The notes beneath the pieces were generated by a model. The model was not told the DNA's origin and ran no database searches. It saw only the letters and a list, made by a program, of their open reading frames with translations. Below are positions 831 through 60,640 of a stretch of 64,000 nt of DNA, one piece after another. Numbering within the stretch: position 1 is the stretch's first letter; each line of letters begins with the position of its first letter. The translations under genes were made by a program, and so were the position numbers. Source of the stretch: Owenia fusiformis (lineage: Eukaryota; Annelida; Polychaeta; Sabellida; Oweniidae); assembly GCA_903813345.2 (NCBI GenBank), contig CAIIXF020000002.1:17243467-17307466 (forward strand), read 5' to 3'.

Positions 831-1547
831 CAGTTGGGGACATAAATAAATGACAGGTGGATTTGCTGACGTGAGGATTTCCTTACTCGAGTCTCTAGCT
901 TATAGCTAGACGAAACTTCATTGATTTCGTATGTACTGTGCTACACGCACCTACACGCACCTAAAACTCATTTTTAATAAATTTTATAAATATTTTTAAG
1001 AATATTAATCATATTTAGGATGAAGCGTTGCTTGTCTGGATTTAGATATTTCAAAATTTCATTTCGGAGTTTCAACACATGGTGAAATTTTCTCGCTGTA
1101 GCTAAAAATGGCTTCCGGTTCTGGACGTGAATAACATTTGAAATTATTCTCGCTTAAAGAAATCAAATATAACAATAGATTCAGACGGGGATGTGAGCTG
1201 GTGTTCTTCAAATCTATACATCAAGGTATATTTCATATTATTATGCCATATTTACTGTGCGTGTGACACAATGATTTACAATATTTATAATACTAAGGCA
1301 GCTCAATCTTCCTCCTCAAAGCCGGAATATAGAGAAGGCTTTGGACCGAAGTAAGGATTTCCCATGTTAAAAATAAGAGAATTTACAAGAGGCCATACAT
1401 CAGTGGATGAGATTATACAAAATGTAAAATATACAAATTTTAAGGGATATATATCTAGACAATATTGGAAATTATGGGCTTTCAGACCACCATAATTAGG
1501 AAATGGTGATCGAAAATCGACCTGTCGTTTATTTTTGTCCCCAACTG
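831..1547. mobile_element. Tc1/mariner-type MITE, 717 bp
   Basis: The ends form an inverted repeat of about 28 bp starting CAGTTGGGGACA, seen at 831 and, reverse-complemented, ending at 1547. Both ends are flanked by TA (829-830 and 1548-1549), the target duplication of the Tc1/mariner superfamily. There is no transposase frame inside, so it is a non-autonomous (MITE) copy. It sits directly against the left arm of the palindromic element that starts near 1550. Confidence 0.75.
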
Positions 1548-1684
1548 TACATGTTATCTAGTTCCACCATCCTCTTCGTTTCTGGTCTTGGGGGATCCAT
1601 CCATTGAAACACACAGTATTTTTCAAAAGTTGAAATTTAACGGTGTTAGGTACGCATATATTTCTTACCTCTATCGACTCTTAA

Positions 1685-2691
1685 GGCGACGCTATATTAA
1701 ATAATAAGTACAAAAAATGACTGCCATATTTTTTTGATAAAGACACATGTTTTTAAAATCTGTTTACCTTGTATATGAATTGTGTATCTTGACTAATGAA
1801 ACATGTCAAAGTTAACATCACACATAAACGCATTTTTCCAAACTATGAATTGGAGGTGCATGGATCCCCAAAGCTAGCATGAAGAGTGCGAAGTGAGGCT
1901 AATTTTTGAAAGTTTAAAGGAGTAGCCTTGCAAAAGTCACACATTTGCAAGAGTCTAAAATTTCCACAAATCATCTTACCTTTCCCAGGAACAACGAAGG
2001 AGCATGAAAATGTGCACTTTTTGCATTGTTAGAGTATAATAAACCTCAAACCATTGTAAATTCCAAATATTTCATGTCCACATTTTGTTTGCCGGAACTA
2101 CTTCTAGACTTCCTGATTAATCCTCATGCAAGTTTTGTGACTACACCAAGTGGCATGGATTATCACTTGTATGTTTTATCTATTACAGTGTAATTATCAT
2201 GATAGATACATGATAGAGGCTTTATGAATGATAAACAATGGAAACATGAATGAAGATAACTCTGGACTAAAAAATAGTTCCAGGAAACAAAATGGTGGAC
2301 ATGAAATATTTAGAATTCACAATGGTTTGAGCTTTATTATACTCTAACAATGCAAGAAGTACACATTTTCGTGCTCCTTCGTTGTTCCTTGGTAAGGTAA
2401 GATGATTTGTGGAAATTTTAGACTCTTGCAAATGTGTGACTGTTGCAAGGCTACTCCTTGAAACTTTCCAAAATTAGCCTCACTTCACACTCTTCATGCT
2501 AGCTTTGGGGATCCATGCACCTCCAATTCATAGTTTGGAAAAATGCGTTTATGTGTGATGTTAACTTTGACATGTTTCATTAGTCAAGATACACAATTCA
2601 TATACAAGGTAAACAGATTTTAAAAACATGTGTCTTTATCAAAAAAATATGGCAGTCATTTTTTGTACTTTTTATTTAATATAGCGTCGCC
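1685..2691. mobile_element. TTAA-flanked palindromic MITE, 1007 bp
   Basis: Nearly the whole element folds back on itself: about 1685-2170 pairs with about 2270-2691. The termini read GGCGACGCTATATT and its complement. TTAA lies on both sides (1681-1684 and 2692-2695), the target duplication used by piggyBac and Kolobok transposons. No coding capacity. The right-hand TTAA is shared with the next element, which starts at 2696. Confidence 0.8.
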
Positions 2692-2695
2692 TTAA

Positions 2696-3099
2696 GGTAC
2701 AGCTGGAAAGTAACATTTTGGTAAAAAATTGCTATACCTGCACATGTTATTTTCTGGTACAAAATAAAATATGAAGGCATGTGTCAATTTCCTTGCTTTT
2801 TTCAGGAAAGTATCATTACATTGTCTTCTTTTAGAATATCTGGTAGGGGTTCAATGGAAACTCCAGGAAATTCTGATATTTCACACTTTCTATTTTTCCA
2901 AATTTTCTTTCAAAGTTTCCAGACAACATAGGAGCTACCATTGACCTGTTTCTAGATATTCTATAAGTAAACAGTGTAATGATACTTTCCTGAAAAAAGC
3001 AAGGAAATACACACACAACTTCATACTTAATTTTGTACCAGAAAATAACATGTGCAGGTATAGCAATTTTTTACCAAAATGTTACTTTCCAGCTGAACC
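2696..3099. mobile_element. TTAA-flanked palindromic MITE, 404 bp
   Basis: The ends (GGTACAGCTGG at 2696; its near-complement ending at 3099) are inverted repeats that continue inward for well over 100 bp. Flanking TTAA sites are 2692-2695 and 3100-3103. It is butted against the 1007-bp element with one TTAA between them, so one inserted at the border TTAA created by the other. Non-coding. Confidence 0.8.
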
Positions 3100-3766
3100 T
3101 TAACACCAAAAGAAATGTTCTCCCCAAGCCAGAAAAGACGCGGCTGTCTCAAACTGCAGTTATATACACTTAAATCTTCGAGTCGACCAGTATAATTCAG
3201 CTTATTTCAAAATGTCTGCCATGAACATTTCATCCAGTGCCTACATTTCAATCTCTTTTTCCCGGGAACATTATCCTTCAAACTTGAGAAATTAGTTCGC
3301 TCAATTAATACGGAACCAAGTCAAACAACATTGATAAATCGTGAGTAACGATGTATTTGAATGATTTCACTGGAAATTGCTGTTGTATTTGACGTGTTGT
3401 TAGATAAAATGCAAGGACATTCCCTCAACTGATCGGTGGCAGCCAACGCTGAATGCTAAATCTTCATTTATATATTACTACGCGTCATGTAGGTTAAAAA
3501 AGTTCGAAAGTGACGTCAACAAATTCATGGATGACATTTTGGAAAACCGGTAGATTTGAAGTTTGAAGTGTATATTACTCAGCGATTTGAGACAGCCGCA
3601 ACTTTTTTGCCTTTAGAAGAATGTTTCTCGTGATGTTAAGAATCGATAGAGGTAAGAAATATGTGCGTAGCTATCGCAGATAAATTTCAACTTTTGAAAA
3701 ATAACATGCGCTTCAATACATCCCCCGCAAGACTATAGTCTTGGAACGAGATAACGTACATGTACA

Positions 3767-5986
3767 TGTAGAATCTGAACACAAATTCTCGGTAGAAGTT
3801 CATATGGTGAAAATAACGAAATAATGAAATGTTACTCTGTGTCTACTTAGCAGTTTGTTCTATGTCATCCCTCCTGCAAGGTTACATTGTTGAACTCAGC
3901 CAAACACGACAATGAAGCACAGATAGTGGGAAGTCCTCCATCTAGGAGGTACATATTTTTTATTATCCCATCGAACGAAGTTCGGAGGGATATAGGGAAC
4001 GCCTCCGTCCGTCCGTCCGTCCGTCCGTACGTACATCCGTACGTACATCCGTCCGTCCGTCCATCCGGGCAATTACTCAAATACCGTTGGCCCGATTTTA
4101 TTCATATTTTGTACACATATACCCTATGAGAGTAGAAGTTCTGCTCGAAAGCCGATTTTCAAAATGGCCGCTCATTTAAAAATGGCGGCCATTTTAGTGC
4201 TGATTTTACAGTAATTTAGGTGCAATATGTAAAACTGTAATAGCAATATGTTTTAAATGTAAAAAAACTATATAGGACATTAATAAAGCTAGAAATGTAG
4301 ATATTGAAAAAGCACATGGCAGCCATCTTGAAAAATGGCGGCCTTTACTCGTTATTTTACGAAAAGTAGTGGAGCGATTTTGTTCATATTTGGTATGTGA
4401 ATACTATAAGCATGGCACACTGTCTAATGACACTTTTGGTAGAAGGCGGCCATTTTGAAAAATGGGGGACATTTTGAAAAATGGCCGCCATTTTAACTTA
4501 TTTTACTAAAACTCGAAAAGTAGTGGAGCGATTTTGTTCATATTTGGTACGTGAATACGTATAAGAATGCCACACTGTCTAATGACACTTTTGGTAGAGG
4601 GCGGTTTTTTTTCAAAATGGCCGCCATTTTAACGTATTTTACTATAACTTGAAAAGTAGTGGAGCGATTTTGTTCATATTTGGTATGTGAATACTGTAAG
4701 CATGGCACACTGTCTAATGACACTTTTGGTAGAAGGCGGCCATTTTGAAAAATGGCAGACATTTTGAAAAATGGCTGCCATTTTAACTTATTTTACTATA
4801 ACTCAAAAAGTAGTTGAGCGATTTTGTTCATATTTGGTACGTGAATACGTATAAGCATGGCACACTGTCTAATGACACTTTTGGTAGAAGGCGGCCATTT
4901 TGAAAAATGGCCGCCATTTTAACGTATTTTACTATAACTCGAAAAGTAGTAGAGCGATTTTGTTAATATTTGGTATGTGAATACTATAAGCATGGTACAC
5001 TGTCTAATGAGACTTTTGGTAGAAGGCGGCCATTTTTCAAAATGGCCACCATTTTAACGTATTTTACTATAACTCGAAAAGTAGTAGAGCGATTTTGTTC
5101 ATATTTGGTATGTGAATATTATAAGCATGGCACACTGTCTAATGACACTTTTGGTAGAAGGTGCCCCTTTTGAAAAATGTTCGGTGGGATTCGCTACGCT
5201 TTGGCGTTGCCGTTGCCGTTGTTCTGGTTTTGGATGGAAGCTTCGTAACCTGAGAAATAATATAAGTAATATATGGAGGACTTCCCATAACTGTGCAATG
5301 AAGGCAGTATTCTGAGGTTATAAAATCTAAATCGTAAAAATTTCCAATTTCTTCTTCTTCTGCAGCCCCTTGGAGACTTCCGGAATTGAACAAAGTAGCG
5401 AACGTTGCGATCTTTCAACTAGTTCGTTGTTTTTCACCACTTAATGTGTAGTGTTTTCATTTAGGAGGCGGTCTTATTTGAATGCATCATTTCAGGTCTT
5501 TAAGAATCAATAGATCAATAAGCAGACTAAAATACAATTTTTAGCAGTTTCTTTCATTGCGTATTGGGCCTGTTAGGCACGAAATACAATTTAGCTGTTT
5601 CGTTCGTTGCGTAATTGGGCCTTCTATAATCAGTAGCAAATGCTCGGAAAACATTTTCCAAAATATTTACTTCCGTTTTCCTTGACATGGTTGGGGGACA
5701 CGTCATTAAGTCACATGATCGATACAGTAACTAGTCACATGATCAGACACGTATCACGTGTCAGTCACTTGAGCTAGCAAAATGGACGATCTAAATTTCC
5801 AAAAATTCTGCTAAGATCAACATCGACGTGTTGTTGCCTTCAGTGTCGTGTTTGGCTGCGTTCCACAATGTAACCTAGCAGGATGGATGACATAGAACAA
5901 ACTGCTAAGTAGACACACGGTAACATCTCATTATTTCGTTATTTTCACCATATGAACTTCTACCGAGAATTTGTGTTCAGATTCTA
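3767..5986. mobile_element. Foldback element interrupted by a pearl-like element
   Basis: The left arm (3767-3950) pairs with the right side (5265-5300 and 5810-5986) in inverted orientation. Shared landmarks include the sequences around the CCATATGAAC-type motif near 3800 and 5950. The right side holds about 450 bp with no partner in the left arm. The centre is occupied by a (CCGT)n-bearing pearl-like element at 3960-5227. No coding frame. Confidence 0.65.
3960..5227 (+). mobile_element. Pearl/HINE-like element, family A, complete copy
   Basis: It starts with TTATTATCCCATCGAACGAA, then a (CCGT)n microsatellite (about 4006-4060), then a tandem core. Core copies are marked by a CACACTGTCTAATGAC motif near 4415, 4570, 4705, 4860, 4996 and 5131, a spacing of about 135-155 bp. 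It ends with a conserved tail containing TACGCTTTGGCGTTGCCGTT. Bivalve pearl elements (non-autonomous, Helentron-associated) have this order: 5' segment, microsatellite, tandem core, 3' tail. The family assignment is by architecture only; other copies lie at 10767, 13032 and 37702. Confidence 0.7.
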
Positions 5987-7064: not shown

Positions 7065-36756
<29,692 letters not shown>

Positions 36757-37493: not shown

Positions 37494-40400
37494 CTAGGGT
37501 CTGTTACAATATGCAAGTGCGCCATCAGTCTCTTCACAGATCCATGTCTTGTATTCAGAGACTCTGGTATAGACCGAGGGCTTGTAGAGGCACCCATTGA
37601 CGACAAATGAAGACACACCAGCAAGTACAGTCTGGCCATTGTGTTGACACATCATAGGGCTTCCCTCGTCACCCTGGAGATGAGAATGTATACAATGTAA
37701 ACCAGAACAACGGCAACGCCAAAGCGTAGCGAATCCCATCGAACATTTTTCAAAACGGCCACCTTCTACCAAAAGTGTCATTAGACAGTGTGCCATGCTT
37801 ATAATATTCACATACCAAATATGAACAAAATCGCTCTACTACTTTTCGAGTTATAGTAAAATATGTTAAAATGGTGGCCATTTTGAAAAATGGCCGCCTT
37901 CTACCAAAAGTGTCATTAGACAGTGTGCCATGCTTATACGTATTCACATACCAAATATGAACAATTATCGCTCCACTACTTTTCGAGTTTTAGTAAAATA
38001 AGTTAAAATGGCTGCCATTTTTCAAAATGTCCGCCATTTTTCAAAATGGCCGCCTTCTGCCAAAAGTGTCATTAGACAGTGTGCCATGCTTATAGTATTC
38101 ACATACCAAATATGAACAAAATCGCTCCACTACTTTTCGAGTTACAGCAAAAATCGTAAAATAACGAGTAAAGGCCGCCATTTTTCAAGATGGCTGCCAT
38201 GTGCTTTTTTAATATCTACATTTCTAGCTTTATTAATGTCCTATATAATTTTTTTTACATTTAAAACATATTGCTATTACAGTTTTACATATTGTAGCTA
38301 AATTACTGTAAAATCAGCACTAAAATGGCCGCCATTTTTAAAAGAGCGGCCATTTTGAAAATCGGCTTTCGAGCAGAACTTCTACTCCCATAGGGTAAAT
38401 GTGTACAAAATATGAATAAAATCGGGCCAACGGTATTTGAGTTATTGCCCGGACGGACGGACGTATAGACGGACGTACGTACGGACGGAGGCGTTCCCTA
38501 TATCCCTCCGAACTTCGTTCGATGGGATAATTAACACTGAAGGCTGCTAGGCTAGTGTGGGGCTTCATACTGGAGACAAAAACTTGTTTCTTTTTTTGGT
38601 AATATTAGATTACAACTTTGAATTTAGAATTAAATGTCTCCAAATATCACATGAGATTGTTTCAGCATAAATATTTAAAAATAAAAAAATTAGTACCGTG
38701 GGTACTGGGCTCACATGGTCACATTTTTTGCTGATTTTTTGTTACAAAATTATTTCAAGCCATCTGTCTCTCAGTCAATTAAAATGGTTGAAAAAAAAAT
38801 GGATATAATTTTTTGCAATAATTTGTAACAAAATTATTTCATACAACTACTCTTTACACCTGAAATTATTTGTAAAGCTAGGAAATGGGCCAAAATTGAA
38901 TTTCGCGAGACAAAAATGGCGACCATTTTGAAATCAGGCAAGCTTTTGAACCAGGAGTCATGGGGGAGTTTTTTGTATTGATGTTGAACAAAAATAACTT
39001 GAAACTGGAATCCTATCGACAGAGGTTTTAAGCAAATGGTCCAAAAGAGGATTTCGCGAGACAGATGGACAAATCAATGTTAACTAAAATGGCTGAAAAT
39101 AAAAAAAAACGGATATAATATTTTGCAGATTTTTTGTAACAAAATTATTTCATACAACTACCTTTTACAGTGACATGGCTTTTTACAATGCTGAGGACAG
39201 CTGAAATTATTTGCTTTTTACAATGCAGGACAGCTGAAATTATTTGTAAAGCTATGAAATGGGCAAAAAGTGAATTTCGCAAAACAAGAATGGCAACCAT
39301 TTTGAAAATAGGCGAGCTTTTGAACCAAGAGTCATAGGAGAGTTTTTTGTATTGATGTTGAACAAAATTAATTTAAAATGGGAATCCTATCGACAGAGGG
39401 TTTAAGGTAAATGGTCCAAAAGTGGATTTTGCGAGACAGATGGACAAATCAATGTTAACTAAAATGGCTGAAAATAAATAAATGGATATAATTTTTCACT
39501 GATTTTTCATAACAAAATTATTTCATACATCTACTCTTTACATTGACATGGATTTTTACAATGTAGGACACTTGAAATTATTTGTAAAGCTAGGAAATGG
39601 GTCAAAAGTAAATTTCGCGAGACAAAAATGGCGGCCATTTTGAAAATAGGCGAGCTTTTGAACCAGGAGTCATAGGGGAGTTTTCTGAATTCATGTTGAA
39701 CAGAAATAACTTAAAACAGGAATCCTATCGACAGAGGTTTTAAAACGTGCCACTGTTATTGACAGAAAGTGGATTTCGCGAGTCAGATAGACAAATCAAT
39801 GTTAACTAAAATGGCTGAAAATAAAAAAATGGATACAATTTTTCGCTGAATTTTTGTAACAAAATTATTTCATATATCTAATCTTTACTTTGACATGGAC
39901 TTTTACAATGTAGGACACCTGAAATTATTTGTAAAGCTAGGAAATGAGCCAAAAGTGAATTTCGCGAGACAAAAGTGACGGCCATTTTGAAAATAGGCGA
40001 GCTTTTGAACCAGGAGTCATAGGGGGGTTTTCTGTATTGATGTTGAACAGAAATAACTTAAAACAGGAATCCTATCGACAGAGGTTAGCTAGGAAATGGG
40101 CTAAAAGTGAATTTCGCGAGACAAAAGTGACGGCCATTTTGAAAAGAGGCGAGCTTTTGAACCAGGAGTCATAGGGGGGTTTTCTGTATTGATGTTGAAC
40201 AGAAATAACTTAAAACAGGAATCCTATCGACAGAGGTTTTAAAACGTGCCACTATTGTTGACGGACAGACAGACAGACGGACAGACAGACGGACAAGTGA
40301 GTGATTGCAAAAGCTCACCATGTGAGCTAAAAACATAAGAACGCATTTTGCACAACATAATGTTCAACTTGGGTCTCCACAGAGGCTCATATTTTTATTA

Positions 40401-43400
40401 TTATTATGTCACCACCAGAAGTGGTGCCATATTGTTATGGTCTCAAACTGTGGACCGAGTTTGGCAGGTAGTTTAGAGGTTGGCATCTGTAACAAATGGC
40501 AGGTGGTTACAGTTTCCATGTTAATGCCTGTATGGAGATGTTACATTTAGAGATTTTACTGTATTAACAAAATGTACATTGTATGTAGTTGAATGCAAAG
40601 ACAAGTTACTCACGTTACATGCACTGATCCTGTCGCTGGTATCATATACACATATATGAGTTGTCTGGTTTGCCTGTGGCCAGTATAACAAACACTGCTC
40701 CCCTGTCAACACTGGCAGACTTGTTTTTCTAAGTTCATCAGCATATACTACAAAAAGATGCATGAGATAATTAATAATAGTGATAATGAGTTTTGAGTCA
40801 GTAAAAAGTCTGAACTGATTTGAGGGTAGATGGCCAATAACCAAATAGGGTAATTGTCTTAAGTAGGAATTTGTATTCAACACTCCTCGATTTCTGCAAG
40901 TTGAAATAATGAATTTTGCAAGTGAAGTTAGTGAATTCTGCATAGAAAAAACGCTAATTGTGCGGGTTCGAGTCAATGGCAGTTCCTTCACTGTACCAAT
41001 AAATGAAGAACAGACTAAAGTGCTGTGGTCAGTATTTCCAATTGGAGGTGTTACATTTGAAGAGGATATAAGATTTGGTTGATTAGTAATAAGTAGATCA
41101 ACGCAGGATTGGCTTCTATTTGTGACACGAGTTGGTTGGTCTAATAGCTGTGAAAAAAACAGAATTTGGAGATGGTTATTAAGCTCATTTTCAGTAAACT
41201 TTTCTATATTGTCAGCTTCCCACCAAATTTTGTTGCGAGCATTAAAATCTCCATAAATGACAAACAGGTCAGCATTGGCATTAGTCAAAACTTCAATTCA
41301 GTTTTCATAAATATCTCAATTATCATTAAAGTTACAAGAAAGATTCAAGCGAGAGAACTTTGTTCCTAGCCAACAATGGAAGAAAATTATGGAATACATT
41401 TCAGTACATTTCCCTATTTCATACTCACTTCCAGGACGTGTCATTCCCCAGCCCACAATGGTACAAGACTGGCCAGCAAACGTGTTACTCTCAGGTGGAA
41501 GTTCAATCACTCTTGCTGTTATATTGTCCAGAACAACATTAGTTGCTAACTCAAGGAGTGCTATATCATTTGGGTGACCTTTGTTGATATTTGCTTCAAA
41601 ACCTGGATGCTGAAATACAACATATTCCTGAACTTTAATCTCTGGGCATATTTATTTAATAAATAAATAAGTATACAAATATAAAATAAATAAGTAAATA
41701 TACAAATAGCATGTTCCTGTAATTAGCGAGTTAACATAGATGTAATACTGATAGACTTACTATGATGACATCTTGCACAGTGTGTGCCTGCTCTCTGCGG
41801 GTACATGTGCTACAGCCCCTGTTATGACCCCCTGCCATAACCGCATAATTGTCTGGGTAATTTGCATCGCTGAAAAAATATTGGTCAAAATGTCATTGTA
41901 AAATTAGATCAACTTTGAATTTGTAACATGGTGCTCGACACAACACCTACTGTGTCACATTTAACATCAATTAGGAATATTTAATCCTGAGCATATCACT
42001 TCTGCAAATAATACAATATTTTATACTCAGCACTCTAGGTCCAAGTCCATTGTATAATATTCACTTAAAAGTAACTTGTTCCTGCTTCAATGCATTTTTG
42101 TTGTTTAGCCACCCATTCATGGAAAACAATGCAAAATTTATTTTGTTCTATCTTATCTAGTTTTAATCTGGCTGCCCTTTCAATTTTCACATTGGAATGA
42201 AAGCGTTGACTCTTAAGTAGTTATTCATCTGGTGAGTAATGGGGAAGGTCTACATTTTAAATTCTAGACTCTGCACTCCCTCCTTTGTCAACTTTGCAGT
42301 ATGACATGCAATGGTGCAGCTACTTTCAACAAAACCCGTTTTATCCGATGACATTTATACCTTTGGCAGACTTTCCAACTAAGTTATATACTCATGTAAA
42401 TCACAGTCGCCAAGTTACTGTGGCAACCATTATTTCATTGGTTGTAGGAAGCAATTTGTCTAAGCAAAAATATTCAACTTACCAATATTGTTGATTTTGA
42501 AAAAGTATATCATCAATCTAGAAAATATATATTACAGTTTCTTTGATGTACCATTAGGTGGCAGGGTTTTATGAAAAGGTCAATTGTAAGGAGGATTGGA
42601 TCCCAGAATGCAATCTTGATATTCTACCATATATGGTGTTATGACATTATTATTGCTGTGTACTAAATTCAAAATCAAACATTCAGCATTTCTCACTCTA
42701 GAATTTGAATCACCAGTTTTGGTATTATTACCAAACAAAAAAATTCCAAATGCACAAAATGTGTACAAAATGTCCCCACCAATGGGTGATCCCATCAAAT
42801 GGTTATCCTGAAAATGAGTAGACAAGACTTTACTGACACAATTTGGGGAGGGAAAGTCCAAAATGGCCACCTTAAAATTTACCCAGAATCCCCAAAAATT
42901 AGCTAGTTCTAGATTTTCATACTAAGAACCACCCCTGAAAATTTGAAATTGATCCGTCAAACAGTTAAACAAGACTTTACAGACACGATTTTAGGACGGA
43001 AAATCCAAAATGGCTGCCTTAACATTTACCCAGAATGTCAAAAAACTAATCAGTTCTAGATTTTCATACTAAGAATCATCCCTGAAAAGTTGAAATTGAT
43101 CTACCAAACGGTTCACCTGAAAACGCGTAGACAAGACTTTACAGACAAGATTTTAGGACAGAAAATCCAAAATGGCTGCCTTGACATTTACCCAGAATGC
43201 CAAAAAACTAATCAGATCTAGGTTTTCATACTAAGAATCATCCCTGAAAATTTGAAATTGATCTAACAAACGGTTCACCTGGAAATGCGTAGACAAGACT
43301 TTACAGACAAGATTTTAGGACGGAAAATCCAAAATGGCTGCCTTGACATTTACCCAGAACGCCAAAAAAACTAATCAGATCTAGATTTTCATACTAAGAA

Positions 43401-44884
43401 TCATCCCTGAAAATTTGAAATTGATCTACCAAACGGTTCACCTGGAAATGCGTAGACAAGACTTTACAGACAAGATTTTAGGCATAAAATCCAAAATGGC
43501 TGCCTTGACATTTACCCAGAACGCCAAAAACTAATCAGATCTAGATTTTTATACTAAGATTCATCCCTGAAAATTTGAAATTGATCTACCAAACGGTTCA
43601 CCTGAAAACATGTAGACAAGACTTTGCAGACAAGATTTTAGGACGGAAAAAACCAAAATGGCCGACAATAAAAAAGTGATAATGAGTTTTTGCTGATTTC
43701 CTTTTACAAAATTATCACATATAACTACTGTTAACAATTACATAGGCTTTTTCAACAAAGTACACCTGAAATTATTTATAAAGCTACTAAATAGTTAAAG
43801 TATGAAAACTCAAAAACACCATTCAATATGATACAAAGTATTATCGCGCGCTAACTTTTCTTCAGACATTCAAAATGGCTGACATGACTGGGCTAACAGG
43901 TCCAAAACCTAATCAGATGTAGAATGAAGTGAGCTGAACAAGATGTTAAAGTTTTAAAAGCAACTGTGAAGCCGTTTTTCTTAAAGTTTGCAGACAAGGA
44001 TTTTAGCATTTGACCTCAAAATGGCCGACAGGAAGTAGCTATCGAGATAAGTTTTTTTCATCCATATCTGTATGCACTCACAAATTATTCCTGAAAATTT
44101 GAAGGTGATACCTGTAGCGGTTTTGGAGAAAACTGCCGGACGTACAGACGGACAGACAGACAACCAGACAGACAGACGGACGGACGCGCGTAGGACGACA
44201 ATATGGCCCCACACTATGTGGTGGGGACATAAAAAAGTAATCAAGATCTTTTGAATGAAATTATGAATTTGTAGCCAGATAACTGTCAGACAATAATGAC
44301 GCTAGGTTTGTTGGAAAATATCAAGTTAGAACCCTGGGATCTAATCGTCCTTGGGTCTAATGTTAAGAAATATGTGATTTACCGCTGAACACAGTTAGCA
44401 GATGTCAATGCCCATTTCTCATGAATCAGAACAGCTCCACATGCGTAGCTGAAACTGTGGATTAACATGAGTTGCCAAGGGAATTCATGCTCCTCTGCTA
44501 AAACCCCTCTTATAATCTGAGAATCCACCCGCTCAATGGCTTGACCTTGACCTGCTGAAAATGGTAAGTCATGAAATATAATAATCTCTCTTTTATTTTT
44601 ATTGTAACAGTCCAATCTCGATATAAGGCCCTATTGTTTTCTTTAGATGAACAATATTTAAATATAAAATTATTTCAATTACTCAAATGATATTTCTAAA
44701 GATAGTGGTTACATATTGTAAAGTAGCAGCCCTCCTACCCCAGTATGTTACACATTTTGCTACAATTTTTGGGGGTGGAGGGGTGCAATACTTAAGGCTA
44801 AGACTTTTAATATAAACTCATTAAAATACATAAAGTTACATATTTCTTACCCAGAATTGTCAGCAAAAGAAACAGACATATCAT
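37494..44884 (-). CDS. Secreted chymotrypsin-fold serine protease homologue, predicted inactive (6 exons, 269 aa)
   Basis: Exons on -: 44884-44851, 44554-44383, 41869-41761, 41609-41429, 40747-40614, 37673-37494; all are GT-AG and join in phase. A hydrophobic signal peptide (MICLFLLLTIL) is followed by a short propeptide and a IIRG site (25-28) in place of the usual IVGG. The S1 landmarks FPWQ, CGAVLI, NDIALLEL and GWG are present. The active site is not: the TAAHC motif reads TSANC (Asn65 for His57), and GDSGGP reads GDEGSP (Glu213 for Ser195). Asp120 (Asp102) is kept. Disulphide cysteines are largely conserved, so the fold should hold while catalysis should not. Known serine protease homologues act as cofactors or binding proteins in invertebrate immunity; the role here is unknown. 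The frame is open throughout, with no sign of decay. Confidence 0.9.
37702..38533 (-). mobile_element. Pearl-like family A element, reverse copy, protease homologue intron 5
   Basis: The tail (CCAGAACAACGGCAACGCC at 37702) and the 5' end (GAACTTCGTTCGATGGGATA, to 38531) match the copy at 3960 in reverse orientation, with the microsatellite near 38450-38490 and about three core units. The tail lies only about 28 bp from the acceptor of the last exon (37674), so the element may supply branch-point or polypyrimidine sequence. Confidence 0.7.
38680..40335 (-). mobile_element. Pearl-like family B element, reverse copy
   Basis: Its ends GTGGGTACTGGGCTCACATG (near 38699) and CTCACCATGTGAGCT (to 40330) match the family B copy at 13259 in reverse. 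The (GACA)n microsatellite is short (about 40260-40290). Four or more core units are marked by GGAATCCTATCGACAGAGG near 39006, 39380, 39718, 40066 and 40217. Confidence 0.7.
40860..41288 (-). mobile_element. LINE endonuclease fragment in protease homologue intron 4
   Basis: The translated - strand shows a LINE apurinic-type endonuclease segment: the GDFNARN motif followed by a W-W pair, then C-V-D-L-L-I-T and a TDHSTL motif. The frame runs on into the protease exon 5 by chance, and stops interrupt it upstream. There is no reverse transcriptase nearby, so it is a truncated, dead LINE piece in the intron between 40748 and 41428. Confidence 0.8.
42780..44236 (-). mobile_element. Pearl-like family D element, protease homologue intron 2
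   Basis: Six units of about 162 bp, each with a GACAAGACTTTACAGACA motif, begin near 42821, 42969, 43131, 43293, 43455 and 43616. A more diverged stretch follows, then a GACAGACGGACG microsatellite (about 44140-44185) and an end reading ATGTGGTGGGGACAT (about 44216-44230). The order, read on -, is end segment, microsatellite, core, as in families A and B, but the sequences are different. The left limit is approximate. Confidence 0.6.
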
Positions 44885-45254: not shown

Positions 45255-48200
45255 TCAACTTTTCTTGTCTTTGTTTTTCTTGCTGCTCACAGGTCCTTTC
45301 TTGTCATCCTAGAACAAAAAAAACTAAGATTAGAAAAAACTTTTGAAAAAAAAAACTTAATTAATTAGAAAACCTGAAATAAATGAACAAAGCTAAAGGC
45401 TCTTGGGATCTGTGAACAGCTTGTCAAATGTCACTACAGATAAGTAAATACAAAGTTTTTTATCTAGTTCTATATCTAATGAAATTGAAACCAAGAAGCC
45501 CTGCTCAAGAGAGGGTATTATGACATTTCATCAAGTAATCTCTGTTCCCCCTTGAATGATTCACCCCTTGGACATTTCACCTCTTAGAGGTTTCATCCAC
45601 TGGTCATTTCCCTTACTAACCTTCTGTTGTACATATCCATGTTGCTCTAATATATTCCTTGTACAATTGTTAATATGTTTGAATCTATCAGGCCCCAATT
45701 GTATGCCACCATACCACCGTGATACAATCACCAACACATTGTCTACCTCCAATATCTGAAAATATACACTTTTGAACTGATATGGCTTGCTCTATTTACC
45801 AATCTTTAATAGGGGGTTTATTAGAGCCTTAAATTAATTCTAAAATGTACTGACTGTTAACATTTCATACTCAACCCCTCTACAAAGACCAGTAGCTAGC
45901 TTTTGCCAAGGGGTTCAGTATTTAAAAGCGTTCAATAGGGACTCAAATTTAACTAAAATTGCATGACCCCCCACCCCCTGCTATGGACCTAATTCTGAAA
46001 CTGACCTGTAAAAGATGCAACATTCTTGATCCAGCATGTGTTTCTCCATCATCATCACAGTCTTGTTGCATACCACCATCCCCATTGGGAATCCTATAAA
46101 ATCAAGTGGAATTGAGCATGATAATGCTTTTTAACCAGTTTAGGCCCAAAGGATCTGTATTCTGCTGGTCAAAATGGCATTACAGACCAGATACAATGTT
46201 ATTTTCCTATAACAAGTGAAAAATCAACTGGTCCATATCAAAAGTAACCTGGTAATGACCAGCGGACTGCTTTAGGGCCTTCAATGCTTTTAAGGCTTCT
46301 TGAATGCACCCTACCATGACATACCATGACATCATACAGCTTATGTAGGGTGAAACAGGGAACTGTCCATATACAATAGTTTATACATACTATATCAACT
46401 ATAAAAGCATAAAGCGTTGCCTTACATAGAAGTAAATTAAATTTCCGAACCCCTTATGGAGCAGAAACAACTTATCAAAAGTATTTTCATCTCACCTATA
46501 TGCATACATATTGTGAGTGGCATTTGCAATCTTCTTGTTTTCATACAACTTATGAAGAACTGCATCTACTTGAGCTGTGTTTGTTACAATAGCAAGGTGT
46601 GGCTGGAAGACACTCTTCCTGTCTGTTATCACATCACCATGAAAGATCTCTGGTAATTGCACTATAACAAACAGTAAGTATAACAATTACATCAGCACAA
46701 TACAATGACAATACTAGTAGATCACATCTTCAAAATGTGATAAAGATATACATTATTGTAATGTATCTAAACATCTGAAGGAGAGAAATTGCACCAACCT
46801 GAGCATTGTATTGTTTAAAATATAATTGGTAAAAATGGAGCAGACTTGTGTTTGTTTTGTTTTGGATATCTTTTTCAATCCATGTGATATTCCTCATCTT
46901 TTATATTTCCTCAATAATGAAAATACAACCATATTTAATGACATGCCTAGGAGCATGACCAATGAATGATGCATTCAATTTACCTTTATTTTGTTGAGCA
47001 AGTTCAGATGGTTGACTATAGGTGGCACCCTGGTGAGGCACTGTATTTGTTATACTAAAATCACGAACATCTCTGAGTAATTGCTCCTCAGTTTCTGTTG
47101 TATCTGTCTCCTTGGCAACAGTTACTCTCTGTTTGTCATTCCTGTTTTCTAGAAATTCCCTCACACCCTCTATCCACATATAAATAATACTCTCACCTAA
47201 ATTCTCACTGAAAAAGAATTTTAATTGTTTATAAAATACATGTATATTAAGAAATGTCAAATCAGAATACCAACAAGGAGGTCATAGGTGTTTGATTTGT
47301 TGAAAAACAAATCTATCAAATCAAAAACTCCTTTAAACAATAATAACAGATATCAAAAAATATAATCAAATGTAAACTATTTCTTCATCATACAAAGAAA
47401 TGTATACAACTTGTAATGTCTGATGTTTTGGTTGGCCAACTTTTCAACTCACGTGTAAATACTTTCCAGAATATTTTGGAGTTCTACTCTTTCTTGTCCT
47501 CTTAACCAGGGGCAGCTAAAAATAAAATTAATTAACCTATTAATTTATTTATTTCAGTACAATGTATGTACATGTACTAGTATATTGAAACAAAATAAGG
47601 TATTAAGATGACAAAATGTCACTACATGGTAAGTTACTGCAATTTACAGCGATAACTTAACAAATACTGTTTAGACTGACTTCAATTTTGTCAAAATCAT
47701 CTAGAAGTTCAAATCAGCCTTTAAATTCAAGATATTACCTTCAATGACCTTCTCAAGGTCAAAAAAGGTCAAAAAGGTATTTTTCAACTTGCTTCATCAA
47801 ATTGGGCATTTTTTTTCAAAATCATTTACAAGTTCTCAGAAGTTCAAATCTGACTTTGGATTTGAAATTTGATCTTCAATAACCTTCTTAAGGTAGAAAG
47901 ACTTCAATGATCTTCTCAAGATCAAAAATGGTCAAAAAGGTCTTTTTGAACTTACTTCAAACTGACCAAATTTTCTCAGAAGTTCAAATCTGACTTTAAA
48001 AATTGAGATTTCACCTTCAATGACCTTCGCTGAGGGTCAAAAAAGGTAACTTCCAACTTGCTTCAAATTGACCAATTTTTTTCAAAATCATCTTCAAGTT
48101 CTCAGAAATTCAAAACTGACTTAAAGATGCATTATGCCATAGGTTTCTCCCCCAGACAATCAATGATGTCCTATTGTTATTGCTCATATAATATCTCACA

Positions 48201-50211: not shown

Positions 50212-50917
50212 CATAGGAGACAGGTTACCTGAAAAGGAAGATAGATATCATTATCAAGGACTGAAACTGAGGCAAGTCTACCCTGGCTGAAATCAGCTCT
50301 GAAATAACAATTACTGCATGTCAAGCCGTCATTCAATGCTGATTTTGTAGAAAACAGATCTGTCCATCCTTCTACATGTGAGTTTTTCCCATAAAGATGC
50401 TTGATTAAGTAGAAATTCATCAAATTATACCCCTAGAATATCAAAGTTCAACTGTACATCAATCGCGTGAGGAAAAAAAACAAATCCATTCTTCACCTTC
50501 TGTTCACAAACCCTTCTTCTTCTTCTTGGAAAAGTTGTCCCTCATTTGACTAACAGCAAATGTGTATGTTTATGCAGCAATATATGTTAGTTTAGAAAAT
50601 GATTAATTACAATCTTACCTGTAGTTTACAGAAACATCCTAACAGGCCTGTCAACTGTCCCGCAATTTGCGTATTTGTCACGCATTTGCTGAAGAATTTG
50701 AAGTCACGCCAGTTTTTTTTGCGTGACACAAAATGTCACGCAAATACGCATTTTACCTGGTAATTGTCACGCAAATATGTTTCTGTAAAATTTTTTTCAA
50801 AATATGTTTATGATACGGTAAAAATACAAACGTCAGAAAAAAACGAACGCAGTTTGTTCGGATTTGTCACGCGAATCCCGTATATGTCACGCATGTTCAT
50901 TGGAAATTTTCGTACCT

Positions 50918-50967
<50 letters not shown>

Positions 50968-52321
50968 TTGACGACATCGCGAGCGTAGCGAGCGCGAAAA
51001 ATTTGAGGTGATAAAAGTTTAGCAAAGGTGCTCAAACTTTGGCCAAAGGTGTTTAAAAGTTGGCCAAAGGTGTTCAAAATTTGGACAAAAGTGCTCAGAT
51101 TTGGACTTCGGTGTCCAACATTTGTAAGTCACTCATATTAGGTGGTCCCAAGTTGACAGCCCTGTCCTAAGTATGAAAATATTTCACTAAAAATACATGC
51201 TTCCATTTTGTCACATGTTCATAATAATTTACATATTGACCATGTGATGTTGACAGGGAGTGTAAACGCACCTAGCGTACAGGAAATATGTTATGATATT
51301 TATTGAGAAATTAGGTATGGTAATCATTATTACTTATTGTATTAAGCCCCCAACCCACTTCACAAAGTTCATGAAGTACCAAGGAAAGACCAAATATTAA
51401 ATAAATTAGAAAAATTTGAATTTCCAAAAAAATCAAGTGGGTGATAATAGAGCCTCTGAAACATGGCAAAAGTGACATATTTTGTAATTTTCAATGCACT
51501 CCCGATAATTATCTATCATTGTGTGCTTTCCACACCATATCAAACTAATATTATCTAAAAATAATGTATGTAATAAGTTAATGAAGGAAAAATTTAATGT
51601 TTCAGAGACTCTATTATCGCCCACTTGATTTTTTGGGAAATTCAAATTTTTCTAATTTATTTAATATTTGGTCTTTCCTTGGTACTTCATGAGCTTTGTG
51701 AAGTGGGTTGGGGGCTTAATACAATAAGTAATAATGATTACCATACCTAATTTCTTAATAAATATCATAACATATTTCCTGTACGCTAGGTGCGTTTACA
51801 CTCCCTGTCAACATCACATGGTCAATATGTAAATTATTATGAACATGTGACAAAATGGAAGCATGTATTTTTAGTGAAATATTTTCATAAAAAGGATGTT
51901 TCTGTGAAGTACAGGTAAGATTGTAATTAATCATTTTCTAAACTAACATATATTGCTGCATAAACATACACATTTGCTGTTAGTCAAATGAGGGACAACT
52001 TTTCCAAGAAGAAGAAGAAGGGTTTGTGAACAGAAGGTGAAGAATGGATTTGTTTTTTTTCCTCACGCGATTGATGTACAGTTGAACTTTGATATTCTAG
52101 GGGTATAATTTGATGAATTTCTACTTAATCAAGCATCTTTATGGGAAAAACTCACATGTAGAAGGATGGACAGATCTGTTTTCTACAAAATCAGCATTGA
52201 ATGACGGCTTGACATGCAGTAATTGTTATTTCAGAGCTGATTTCAGCCAGGGTAGACTTGCCTCAGTTTCAGTCCTTGATAATGATATCTATCTTCCTTT
52301 TCAGGTAACCTGTCTCCTATG
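50212..52321. repeat. 2.1-kb palindrome upstream of IMPACT
   Basis: The left arm 50212-51460 (less an insertion at 50641-51166) and the right arm 51594-52321 are near-identical inverted copies, with a spacer of about 135 bp. A few base differences (for example in the segment around 51440 and 51615) show that the arms are not one sequence read twice. Each arm encodes the same 70-residue open frame reading outward (50423 down to 50211 on -; 52110 up to 52322 on +), ending at CTTTTCAGGTAACC. The frame is not recognised. The left arm ends about 285 bp before the IMPACT start codon. Confidence 0.85.
50641..51166. mobile_element. Small transposon inserted in one palindrome arm
   Basis: The ends ACAGGCCTGTCAACT and the complement of AGTTGACAGCCCTGT are inverted. 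CCT occurs on both sides, a candidate 3-bp target duplication. The other palindrome arm lacks the insert (51890-51905), which fixes its limits. The interior is full of TGTCACGC and GCGTGACA motifs and includes a 48-base C run at 50919-50966. Confidence 0.75.
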
Positions 52322-52589
52322 CTGGTTGTGTTGAAAATCTAGCACCACCTCCCTCCAATCCAACAATAAGATATTTCAACGATTACTACGAGACTCGGAT
52401 CACTATTGGCATAGTAACATTGACTCGAGTAGATTCAAATTGCTCAGTAATATGTCTGATTGTGTGGCAAATCCAGAATCAAATCTAAGCAGACATCTTA
52501 CTTCCGGTTTCTGAGTTCACCGAACGAAAAATGAAATTATATTCCCGGGACTAAGAAATTGCAATATCTGAGGAATACTTAAAAAGGGA

Positions 52590-53260
52590 TTTTATGTTTA
52601 TACAATTTCGTGTGTATTCGATTTGGAAGACATTCACCTTTCTAATATTACGTGAAAAGGTTTTCGTGCTCCTTTGTCATTTTTTCCCCTGTCCAATTAG
52701 CCATTTTACTGATATCCTTGAATTTTTTGATTTGTTGCTTCAACTGATTCATTCTTTGGTACTGTCAAGAAGATGGAACTATCATCAGCATATAAGAAAA
52801 GTTTACAATTATGAACTGAGTCTGCTAAGTCATTAATATATAACAAAAATAAGAGGGGGCCAAGAATTGATCCTTGGGGAACCCCACTATTTATTTCATA
52901 GGATCTGGAGTCTCGATTTTGAAGATTTTGAGGAATATTTGCACCAGCTTCAGCATTACATGAAATGTCTGAATAAGTATCATTGATCCTTACTTTTAAT
53001 TTCCTATCTGTTAGATATGAGATCAATACCTGTAACTCTATAATATTGTTGCCTAATCCATAAGATTTCATGTTTCCCAAAGTTACATCGATTATTGGTC
53101 GGTTGAAGTTTTAATAAATAATCACGTTTTTGCTAAAATAATTAAAATAAAAAAATCATAAGTGTACGTTGTCATTTCGATGTACGTTGTCCCATTGAAC
53201 TTACATATCTGAGTTCACAGTTAGCCCTTATGTAGACAACGTACTTTTCATAACACTAGG
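52590..53260. repeat. Diverged copy of a foldback arm with LINE insertion
   Basis: 52590-52695 and 53090-53260 match, in the same orientation, two parts of the right arm of the foldback at 53722-55796 (GTGTATTCG...GAAGACATT and the GTACGTTGTC block). A LINE fragment lies between the parts. The GTACGTTGTC block also pairs in inverted orientation with 56155-56300. Confidence 0.6.
52706..53080 (-). mobile_element. LINE reverse transcriptase fragment
   Basis: On - the frame shows the reverse transcriptase motifs GVPQGSILGPLLFLLYINDL and FLYADDSSIF, typical of non-LTR (CR1/Jockey-type) retrotransposons. The ADD catalytic pair is present. Only about 125 residues remain, with neither endonuclease nor 3' end attached. 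It lies inside the diverged foldback arm. Confidence 0.9.
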
Positions 53261-56639: not shown

Positions 56640-58040
56640 AACAGTTTCATCGTTTGTGTAGCATTTTATTTCACCATAGTCAATTTTGTCATATGGAAAG
56701 TTGCATATTATTAATATCGTGTTATATTGATTGAGATAGAGTAGCGAAGAAATATCCAAATTGCTAAATGTCCATAGCATAACGAATATTACATTTTATG
56801 ACTTTATGCAGGATCACAAGTTGGTGCAGAGAAAGAACACGCTGGCACGATATCATAGAGAAAATTAGGTTTTGGAGATGTTCTAATGTCTTCATGGACT
56901 TCGTCAGTGGTCGATCGTCTAGTAGCATGTTATAAGAACTGTACAACCTTTTACTCCTGGTCCAGCAACGGTGTAGGCACATTCTCCTCCAAATCGGACC
57001 CATTTTTTGCTTGCACCAGTTCCTTGTGAAGCCACAAACACATGGCCTTGATACGTGTTAAATACCTAAAGACTGGTCCGGTTTTACGGTAAATGACAAT
57101 CGATCTGTGCTTCCATTCTGGTCCACCCAATATATAGTGACATCCTTATTGCAGGTATTCTTGAAATACTGTTTAAAATAATTTGAAATGTTAGAGTGTA
57201 ATTATCATGTACTCAACATGCATTAATTAGAGTGATGGAAATATAAATCGTAAAAAGTTATGCACTCAATGTTTTGGAATTATCTTGCACGTAATATGTC
57301 AAGAATTTCTCTCCTTGTCTATTAAATACCATATAGTAAATCAACCCAAAAGCATATAAGAAAAATGTGATTCTAGCATATTATTATTGACAAAAATGTG
57401 CTCTCTTGAAATTTGACCAATTTCGGACATTTAGAAAACGAATCATCAATTCTTATCAGTCTTAACATTTTCACCACATTTTTAATAACATCAAAATGCC
57501 GAATACTGAATGCAATAATCAAATTAAATTCACATGTACACCTTTAGCAAGGCAAGGTGTGTCCGATTCCAGTCAATCCGAACCTAATATCAATGAAATT
57601 GTGAAAATAGTAGTTTAATTCATTCTATAGCGAAGCAGTATGCAGTTAACCAATCCACGGCCTACATGGCCTATATATTTTCCAATTGGTGTTTTTAGAC
57701 AGCGTCCCAGCAGTTGAAGTGGTACTTCCACAACACAAAATATCACAATATCATCAAACGATGCAAGATGCAAAAATAACTTGTATGGATAGTGTATCTT
57801 GAACACCATTCTTTATGGATGCTTGGGACGCTGTATCACGGTGGGTATAGTCATTTTTTTATTCATTACAAGTTATATCAATCTGACTATGAGCTGGTGT
57901 ATTAGACACTGATGCACTGTTCTGCTTTCCAAAGTCAAGCTAAATTGATTGCATTGGCGCCCAAACATATGTGGCCATAACCTGATAAACTTGTACTTGT
58001 TAAGTAAGTGACTACTCGTTTTTAGTCAAACCATTATATA
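56640..58040 (-). repeat. Segmental duplication, copy 1
   Basis: This segment matches 59440-60640 along its whole length, with small indels and about 5-10% visible differences. It contains a copy of exon 3 of the secreted-protein gene and the following intron part. The match ends before the position of exon 2, so exons 1 and 2 were not copied. Beyond 58040 the sequence is unrelated. Confidence 0.8.
56919..57168 (-). pseudogene. Partial copy of secreted VHL-like gene (exon 3 only)
   Basis: It is homologous to exon 3 of the gene at 59687-62326. The splice acceptor (TTTAAACAG) and most codons are preserved, but it is one base longer (250 against 249). The extra base, near 57060, shifts the frame and brings a stop directly after the PDQSLGI equivalent. 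Exons 1 and 2 are absent. A downstream AATAAA on - (56665-56670) is also copied. It is therefore a partial, broken host-gene copy. Confidence 0.75.
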
Positions 58041-59439: not shown

Positions 59440-60640
59440 GAGTCATTTGTAAATCGAGATAAACAGTTTCATCGTTTGTGTAGCATTTTATTTCACCATA
59501 GTCAATTTTGTCATATGGAAAGTTGCATATTATTAATATCGTGTTATATTGATTGAGATAGAGTAGCAAAGAAATATCCAAATTGCTACTATTTCATGAC
59601 TTGATATCATACAGAAAATTAGATTTTGGAGATGTTCTAGTCTCTTCATGGACTTCATCATAGTGATTTCATCATTGGTCGATCACCTAGTAGCATGTTA
59701 TAAGAACTGTACAACCTTTTCCTTCTGGTCCAGCAACGGTGTAGGCACATTCTCCTCCAAATCGGAGCCATTTTTTGCTTGCACCAGTTCCTTGTGAAGC
59801 CACAAACACATGCCTTTGATACGTGTTTATACCTAAAGACTGGCCCGGTTTTACGGTAAATGACAATCGATCTGTGTTTCCATTCTGGTCCACCCAATAC
59901 ACCTGGACATTCTTTTTGCAGGTATTCTTGAAATACTGTTTAAAATAATTTGAAATGTTAAAGTGTAATTATCATGTACTCAACATGCGTTAATTTGAGT
60001 GATTGAAATATAAATCGTAAAAAGTTATGCACTCAATGTTTTGGAATTATCTTGCACGTAATATGTCAAGAATTTCTGGCCTTGTCTATATAGTAAATCA
60101 ACCCAAAAGCAAAAAATGTGATTCTAGCATATTATTATCAATCCGAACCTAATACCCGAGACTAACATAAAATTGTGAAAATAGTAGTTTAATTCATTCT
60201 ATAGCGAAGCAGTAGGCCTATGCAGTTAACCAATCCACGGCCTATATAATTATTTTCCAATTGGTGTTTTTAGACAGCGTCCCAGCAGTTGAAGTGGTAC
60301 TCTCACAACACAAAAAATCACAATATCATCGAACGATGCAAGATGACATGCAAGATGCAAAAATAACTTGTATGGATAGTGTATCTTGAACACCATTCTT
60401 TATGAATGCTTGGGACGCTGTATCACGATGGGTATAGTCATATTTTTCTTTTATTCATTACAAGTTATTTCAATCTGACTATGAGCTGGTGTATTAGACA
60501 ATGATGCACTGTTCTGCTTTCCAAAGTCAAGCCAAATTGATTGCATTGGCGCCCAAAATTATGTAGCCATAACGTGATAAACTTGTTAAGAAGCAAATGA
60601 CTACTATTCTAGTACTCGTTTTTAGTAAAACGATGCTAAT
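59440..60640 (-). repeat. Segmental duplication, copy 2
   Basis: Partner of 56640-58040. It carries the intact exon 3 (59687-59935) of the secreted-protein gene, the AATAAA on - at 59487-59492, and the first 700 bp of intron 2. The match with copy 1 stops about 70 bp before exon 2 (60708). Confidence 0.8.

Follow-up and report, generated by a model that had tools for sequence, protein, structure and literature searches.

We analyzed a stretch of 64,000 nucleotides from the annelid Owenia fusiformis (the window; contig C2, bases 17243467-17307466; the genome has 498 Mb in 525 contigs), which carries on its minus strand, from 44884 to 37494, the gene of a serine protease homologue with two of the three catalytic residues replaced. 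As proposed in the first-pass annotation of this DNA, its six exons are open and in phase. All five introns are GT...AG, and the spliced model comprises 810 nt including the stop codon and encodes 269 amino acids. Exon 1 (44851..44884) holds the start codon and a hydrophobic signal peptide (MICLFLLLTIL), assigned by eye from MICLFLLLTILA, and is followed by a GT donor. Exon 2 (44383..44554) encodes a short propeptide, a Gln-Ile activation bond, Cys42 and SANC with Asn57, exon 3 (41761..41869) a CxxC loop (GCSTC) common to the paralogues L033 and L034A/B of the same genome, and exon 4 (41429..41609) Asp102 and a GWG motif. Exon 5 (40614..40747) stops just short of the motif around residue 195, as it does in L031, L032 and L034A/B, and exon 6 (37494..37673) supplies GDEGSP, SSFV, C-terminal cysteines of the type seen in the clade and the stop codon.

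At the stop frequency of the introns, the chance of 269 open codons is about 7e-8. In-frame codon scores were positive for exons 2-6 (8.8 to 19.0 bits; 14.9 bits for exon 2) and lay above those of the five other frames, although exons 3 and 5 led only narrowly. Exon 1, which is short and carries the signal peptide, had a weak coding score (-5.4 bits) and is the least certain exon of the model. Residues 25-255 match PF00089 (Trypsin) over the whole profile (1-220 of 220; E 9.9e-43, 146.9 bits), which places the protein in the S1A fold family; the only other Pfam match was DUF1986, below threshold. The model has only 24 residues before the domain and, unlike the homologues that act as prophenoloxidase cofactors, no N-terminal clip domain. 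The best match in the PDB was an earthworm fibrinolytic enzyme (1m9u, E 1.5e-34).

The altered motifs that had been read from the sequence, TSANC for TAAHC and GDEGSP for GDSGGP, were confirmed at the codon level. Asn65 (chymotrypsin position 57; AAC, 44394..44396) stands where all eight paralogues compared have His, and Glu213 (position 195; GAG, 37665..37667) where all eight have Ser; Asp120 (position 102; GAT, 41565..41567) is retained. In each of the eight paralogues the corresponding codon lies two bases away from that of Asn57 and three from that of Glu195, so that neither change can be put down to a single base error. GDSGGP, TAAHC, SAAHC and AAHC are absent from all six frames of the window and, since the normal motifs occur in no frame there, no alternative exon in the window restores the triad. 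With Asn57, Asp102 and Glu195 instead of the His57, Asp102 and Ser195 of an active S1A peptidase, the protein is a serine protease homologue, that is, an S1 domain with at least one triad residue replaced (pseudoprotease definition as in PMC1761132).

Further replacements were Met41 (position 32; ATG, 44466..44468; Ser in the seven paralogues covering the site), Tyr48 (position 40; TAC, 44445..44447; His in eight) and Phe233-Val234 (positions 215-216; TTT GTC, 37602..37607; Trp-Gly in eight). Ser32 is the third member of the zymogen arrangement that includes His40 and Asp194. In trypsinogen, His40 pairs with Asp194 (PMC13194640). Both of the lost residues, Ser32 and His40, are linked to the zymogen state. 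A cleft blocked by residues 215 and 216 was considered and dropped, as Phe215-Val216 also stands in salmon elastase 1elt. Domain and tail together contain 12 cysteines, and the earlier statement that Asp102 and the cysteines remain was borne out: all nine cysteines common to the eight paralogues are retained, eight at classic sites and one that ends the last strand (WIC/WLC).

The processing site had also been described as remaining. This holds for the new N-terminus (II.G) and for Asp194, and has to be qualified for P1 of the activation bond (VDSQ/IIRG, cut between Gln and Ile), which is Gln24 (CAG, 44517..44519) and not Arg/Lys. In the relatives, P1 is Gln in L031, L033 and both genes of a tandem pair (L056 g1/g2), Phe in L029 and L030, Leu in L034A and L034B, and Arg in L058 g1. 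KLK4, an active enzyme, likewise has Gln at P1, and MMP20 or cathepsin C activates it in vitro (PMC4082239). Gln is also the P1 residue of bee SP22, SP27 (second domain) and SP43 (PMC1761132). A loss of processing, suspected from the Gln, was rejected in view of these proteins. Judged by the residues of the relatives and KLK4, the activation site is one typical of this clade rather than a trypsin site that has been lost.

S1 genes are numerous in this genome. A PF00089 profile search gave at least 161 matches, a lower bound with 150 of 527 candidates scored, and a search with the protein as query gave 106 matches with 143 of 237 candidates scored. Outside the gene's own exons no scored candidate exceeded 53% identity, so that the gene appears to be single-copy as far as these candidates show. 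Spliced models of the relatives were predicted from the genomic sequence of close loci with a custom aligner. Eight models (L029, L030, L031, L032, L033, L034A, L034B and L035) have TAAHC or SAAHC, D102 and GDSGGP; that of L032 is without the first part of the domain. To the seven L029-L034 models, which have intact triads and are 53-91% identical to one another, the window gene shows 42-46% identity, and to L035 36%. Exon layout is the same in four of the seven (L031, L032, L034A/B); the last boundary is shifted in L033, and intron 4 is missing in L029/L030. The L029-L034 proteins and 1m9u share the fold family and most conserved cysteines with the window gene and differ from it by the presence of His57 and Ser195. 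Identity to 1m9u is 38% for the window gene and 37-40% for the paralogues. In a tree with 19 relatives the window gene was placed inside the L029-L034 group (ultrafast bootstrap, UFBoot, 84), beside L033 at 52, and in a tree of a smaller set it was basal to this group (64); by tree position it belongs to the elastase-like clade. No relatives were confirmed in collections of viral contigs or of genome contigs.

Two clusters of S1 genes elsewhere in the genome, L010-L012 (C1:2.60-2.62 Mb) and L014-L015 (C11:20.76-20.78 Mb), have near-matching exons in the same order and both include GDFGGP homologues; they are probably a duplicated cluster. L004, L006, L007 and L008 each have a trypsin-like domain within one open frame, and its C-terminal tail (GGWG..S...C) is taken here to resemble a thrombospondin type 1 repeat.

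Of the columns in which seven or more of the eight paralogues are present, 63 are invariant among them, and the window gene retains 49 of these. The 14 lost columns are 17, 32, 40, 55, 57, 195, 197, 213, 215, 216 and four loop positions, in a chymotrypsin numbering that we assigned from the alignment, as for the cleft residues below. Losses fell on 6 of 11 catalytic, zymogen or substrate positions (16, 32, 40, 57, 102, 193, 194, 195, 214, 215 and 216, which cover triad, zymogen switch, oxyanion hole and substrate strand) and on 8 of 52 positions elsewhere (one-sided Fisher p = 0.011).

Such losses could also mark a pseudogene in decay whose frame is still open by chance, a reading in line with the missing catalytic residues and the long branch of the gene. 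The open frame with its five GT-AG introns and the retention of the cysteines conserved among the paralogues speak against it, and so do simulations, which covered substitutions. Random change of six of the 11 machinery codons took a median of 0.30 substitutions per site and brought a mean of 6.4 stops, and only 6 of 2000 such runs remained free of stops. Of 4000 runs, 1, 1, 6 and 3 combined at least six changed codons with a frame free of stops, at 0.2, 0.3, 0.5 and 0.9 substitutions per codon, respectively. In a codon model of nine sequences and 236 columns, a dN/dS ratio (omega) of 1 over the whole branch of the window gene was rejected (log-likelihood, lnL, -5966.3, compared with -5949.7 for a free omega and -5953.9 for a single omega shared by all); runs with omega fixed at 0.3 and 0.5 started at the bound and did not converge. 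We also divided the branch in two, one part constrained and the other neutral, excluding the 11 machinery positions. With one class of sites the best neutral part was 0, and lnL was down by 6.1 at 0.9 per codon; with two classes, on the other topology, the best tested neutral part was 0.2, and lnL was down by 8.5 at 0.9. The two-class model fits far better than the one-class model, and we report both and dropped the latter as main evidence. Interpolation puts the upper limit of a neutral final stretch at roughly 0.4-0.5 substitutions per codon. These fits allow limited relaxation; free neutral decay fits poorly and is not favored, and we regard a pseudogene as unlikely. The fold looks as if it were still preserved by selection.

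Another case of catalytic loss is the tandem pair L056 g1/g2 (1254-4424 and 7817-9847 of that locus), which has Thr57 and Asn102 together with Glu195 in g1 or His195 in g2. Its proteins are 79% identical (dN 0.129, dS 1.103; dN/dS 0.117 by NG86 and 0.152 by YN00). Because both copies share Thr57 and Asn102, their divergence would most simply have followed the loss of catalysis. The pair resembles the window gene in its P1 Gln and, in g1, in Glu195 and a GVSSF motif, and differs from it at 57 and 102. As L056 is sister to L058, its loss looks independent of that in the window gene. For comparison, dN/dS is 0.08 (NG86) or 0.13 (YN00) between L058 g1 and g2, 0.25 (NG86) or 0.16 (YN00) between L029 and L030, and 0.28 (NG86, dS 2.1) between the window gene and L033.

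Several points weigh against constraint on the window gene. Its branch is the longest of the group (0.93 vs 0.05-0.60 for the clade) and combines the time before and after the catalytic loss. Synonymous sites are saturated on this branch, the NG86 dS being 2.1 to L033 and incalculable to L029. Free omega and branch length reached the bound, which makes the free estimate meaningless. The two-class model prefers a neutral stretch of 0.2 per codon over none, by a lnL gain of 1.4 that is not significant. Identity to L035 is 36% for the window gene vs 41-44% for the paralogues, and to L001 31% vs 33-39%. The 11 machinery positions were drawn from textbook roles, but they were chosen after the losses were seen. 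Finally, the low dN/dS of L056 is without a tight control, the intact pair L034A/B being higher at 0.43 (NG86).

Taking both sides together, we consider it probable that the product is a constrained non-catalytic protein. The earlier proposal of a fixed non-catalytic role rather than decay is in this respect partly supported, by the rejection of omega = 1 and by the simulations. A constrained binding protein is the most likely reading. The gene would have arisen from an elastase-like S1 paralogue, and its product would be secreted and catalytically dead, with nucleophile and general base replaced, two zymogen-linked residues changed as well, and most clade-invariant positions and all conserved cysteines retained. 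It would fold as a chymotrypsin-like domain and act by binding instead of cutting, most likely via the old cleft. By alignment, the cleft walls are predicted to be elastase-like (Ser189, Ala190, Val216, Ser226, Ser214 and Gly193). On this basis we propose, more tentatively, that the product acts as a decoy or cofactor and, at a substrate or inhibitor, would compete with active elastase paralogues or assist them; this mechanism may well be wrong even if the protein is constrained. Non-catalytic roles of S1 pseudoproteases are known (PMC13194640). PRSS23 resembles the window gene in that its zymogen switch is dismantled, it is secreted and a non-catalytic role has been proposed, and differs from it by a retained triad (PMC13194640). 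If the gene is constrained as the data suggest, it adds to the S1 domains that have taken on a binding role. The loss of 32 and 40 in addition to 57 and 195 suggests that, once activity is gone, a latency switch becomes superfluous.

The first-pass annotation had stated that known homologues usually change one residue, which does not agree with insect surveys. In the bee, 6 of 13 homologues replace at least two catalytic residues and five have GDGG; Asn57 occurs in three (TTANC, TCGNC, TAANC) and Glu195 in one (SPH54, NDEGAP) (PMC1761132). Among 125 homologues of Tenebrio, His57 is retained in 42 and Ser195 in 24 (PMC11172050), from which we calculate that at least 59 lack both. Ser195 is replaced there by Gly (26), Thr (21), Asn (11), Leu (10), Val (9) or Ile (7), and by A, M, D, E, K, R, Y or F in one to four cases each (PMC11172050). 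Multiple triad loss is thus ordinary in these surveys. The Ser-to-Glu change is rare but known, and its unusualness had been overstated. Among the genes examined in the Owenia genome, it also occurs in two further ones. Dead enzymes of this sort are common in animals, and the window gene is a further example. Literature searches with five strings of the GDEGSP type returned titles unrelated to S1 proteases among the matches listed, and those for mollusc, oyster or annelid homologues nothing relevant among the matches listed.

Residue 195 was Ser in 54, Gly in three, Phe in two, Glu in two, and Arg, Asp and His in one each of 64 exon-6 matches (L001-L055), a non-random sample in which L029-L054 had been chosen for likeness to a Glu195 query; the L033 row starts inside the motif (GDSGGP in the spliced model), and one of the Gly rows is fragmentary. 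Adding the window gene brings the number without Ser195 to 11 of 65. Glu195 was found in three homologues, the window gene, L056 g1 and L057, and Asp195 in L058 g1, which retains His57 and Asp102 and has an intact sister, g2. In L057 (minus strand, exons within ~170-1540, partial model) the whole triad is replaced (Arg57, Asn102, Glu195), and a salt bridge between Arg57 and Glu195 is possible. As the three Glu195 homologues lie on separate branches of the tree, the occurrences are apparently independent; joint inheritance with L056 g1 was not supported by the tree, in which several nodes are weak. A change from Ser to an acidic residue (Glu/Asp) at 195 needs at least two base changes.

This recurrence of acidic residues, a small oddity within one genome, speaks for a reading in which Glu195 together with Asn57 and Asp102 has taken on a new function, for example as a fixed acidic plug or a site that binds a metal or ligand. 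The pseudoprotease MamO binds metal, via a surface di-histidine motif (PMC4794232). Bee SPH54 (PMC1761132) and Tenebrio SerPH364, an S/D/E triad protein with SEA, EGF, LDL and SRCR domains (PMC11172050), share with the window gene Glu195, a replaced His57 and a retained Asp102. Both differ from it by Ser57 and by a transmembrane segment or SEA, EGF, LDL and SRCR domains, whereas the window gene encodes a single secreted domain with Asn57. From their similar layout we infer that the two insect proteins are orthologous, which, if correct, suggests that Ser57/Glu195 is conserved across insects. Against a new function stand the L056 pair, whose copies differ at residue 195 (Glu and His) at a low overall dN/dS, so that this residue can evidently vary, and the choice of many of the exons for likeness to a Glu195 query. 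We consider such a function doubtful. Equally doubtful is the broader idea that catalytic loss in the elastase-like family repeatedly ended with an acidic residue 195, as a selected plug or pseudo-active-site ligand convergent with the insect Ser57/Glu195 homologues. Remaining or modified catalysis in which Glu195 serves as a poor nucleophile or base is highly improbable: Asp102, Ser214, Gly193 and Asp194 are retained, but nucleophile and His base are both gone. We know of no S1 enzyme with Asn57/Glu195, and no search was aimed at one.

Turning from the binding protein that we favor to its surroundings, intron 4 of the gene contains a retrotransposon endonuclease fragment (PF14529, E 1.3e-9; 41019-41285, minus strand), whose open frame of 258 amino acids (40524-41297, minus) continues through exon 5 of the protease homologue. 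A neighboring gene on the plus strand encodes RAD50 (open frame 10375-10620, E 1.3e-17 to solved RAD50), and a UPF0029 exon, presumably IMPACT-like, lies upstream on the minus strand (45564-45791). Searches of the window with Rfam (gathering thresholds) and ARAGORN gave no matches. A reverse transcriptase fragment (PF00078, E 2.2e-10) is located at 52709-53110 (minus). The frame at 59690-59968 had no convincing match in Pfam or the PDB. One open frame of 73 residues occurs at 50214-50432 (minus) and again at 52101-52331 (plus), forming an inverted repeat about 1.7 kb apart, and the open frames at 56767-57057 and 59661-59939 (both minus) share a near-identical stretch of about 55 residues (CVCGFTRNWCKQKM).

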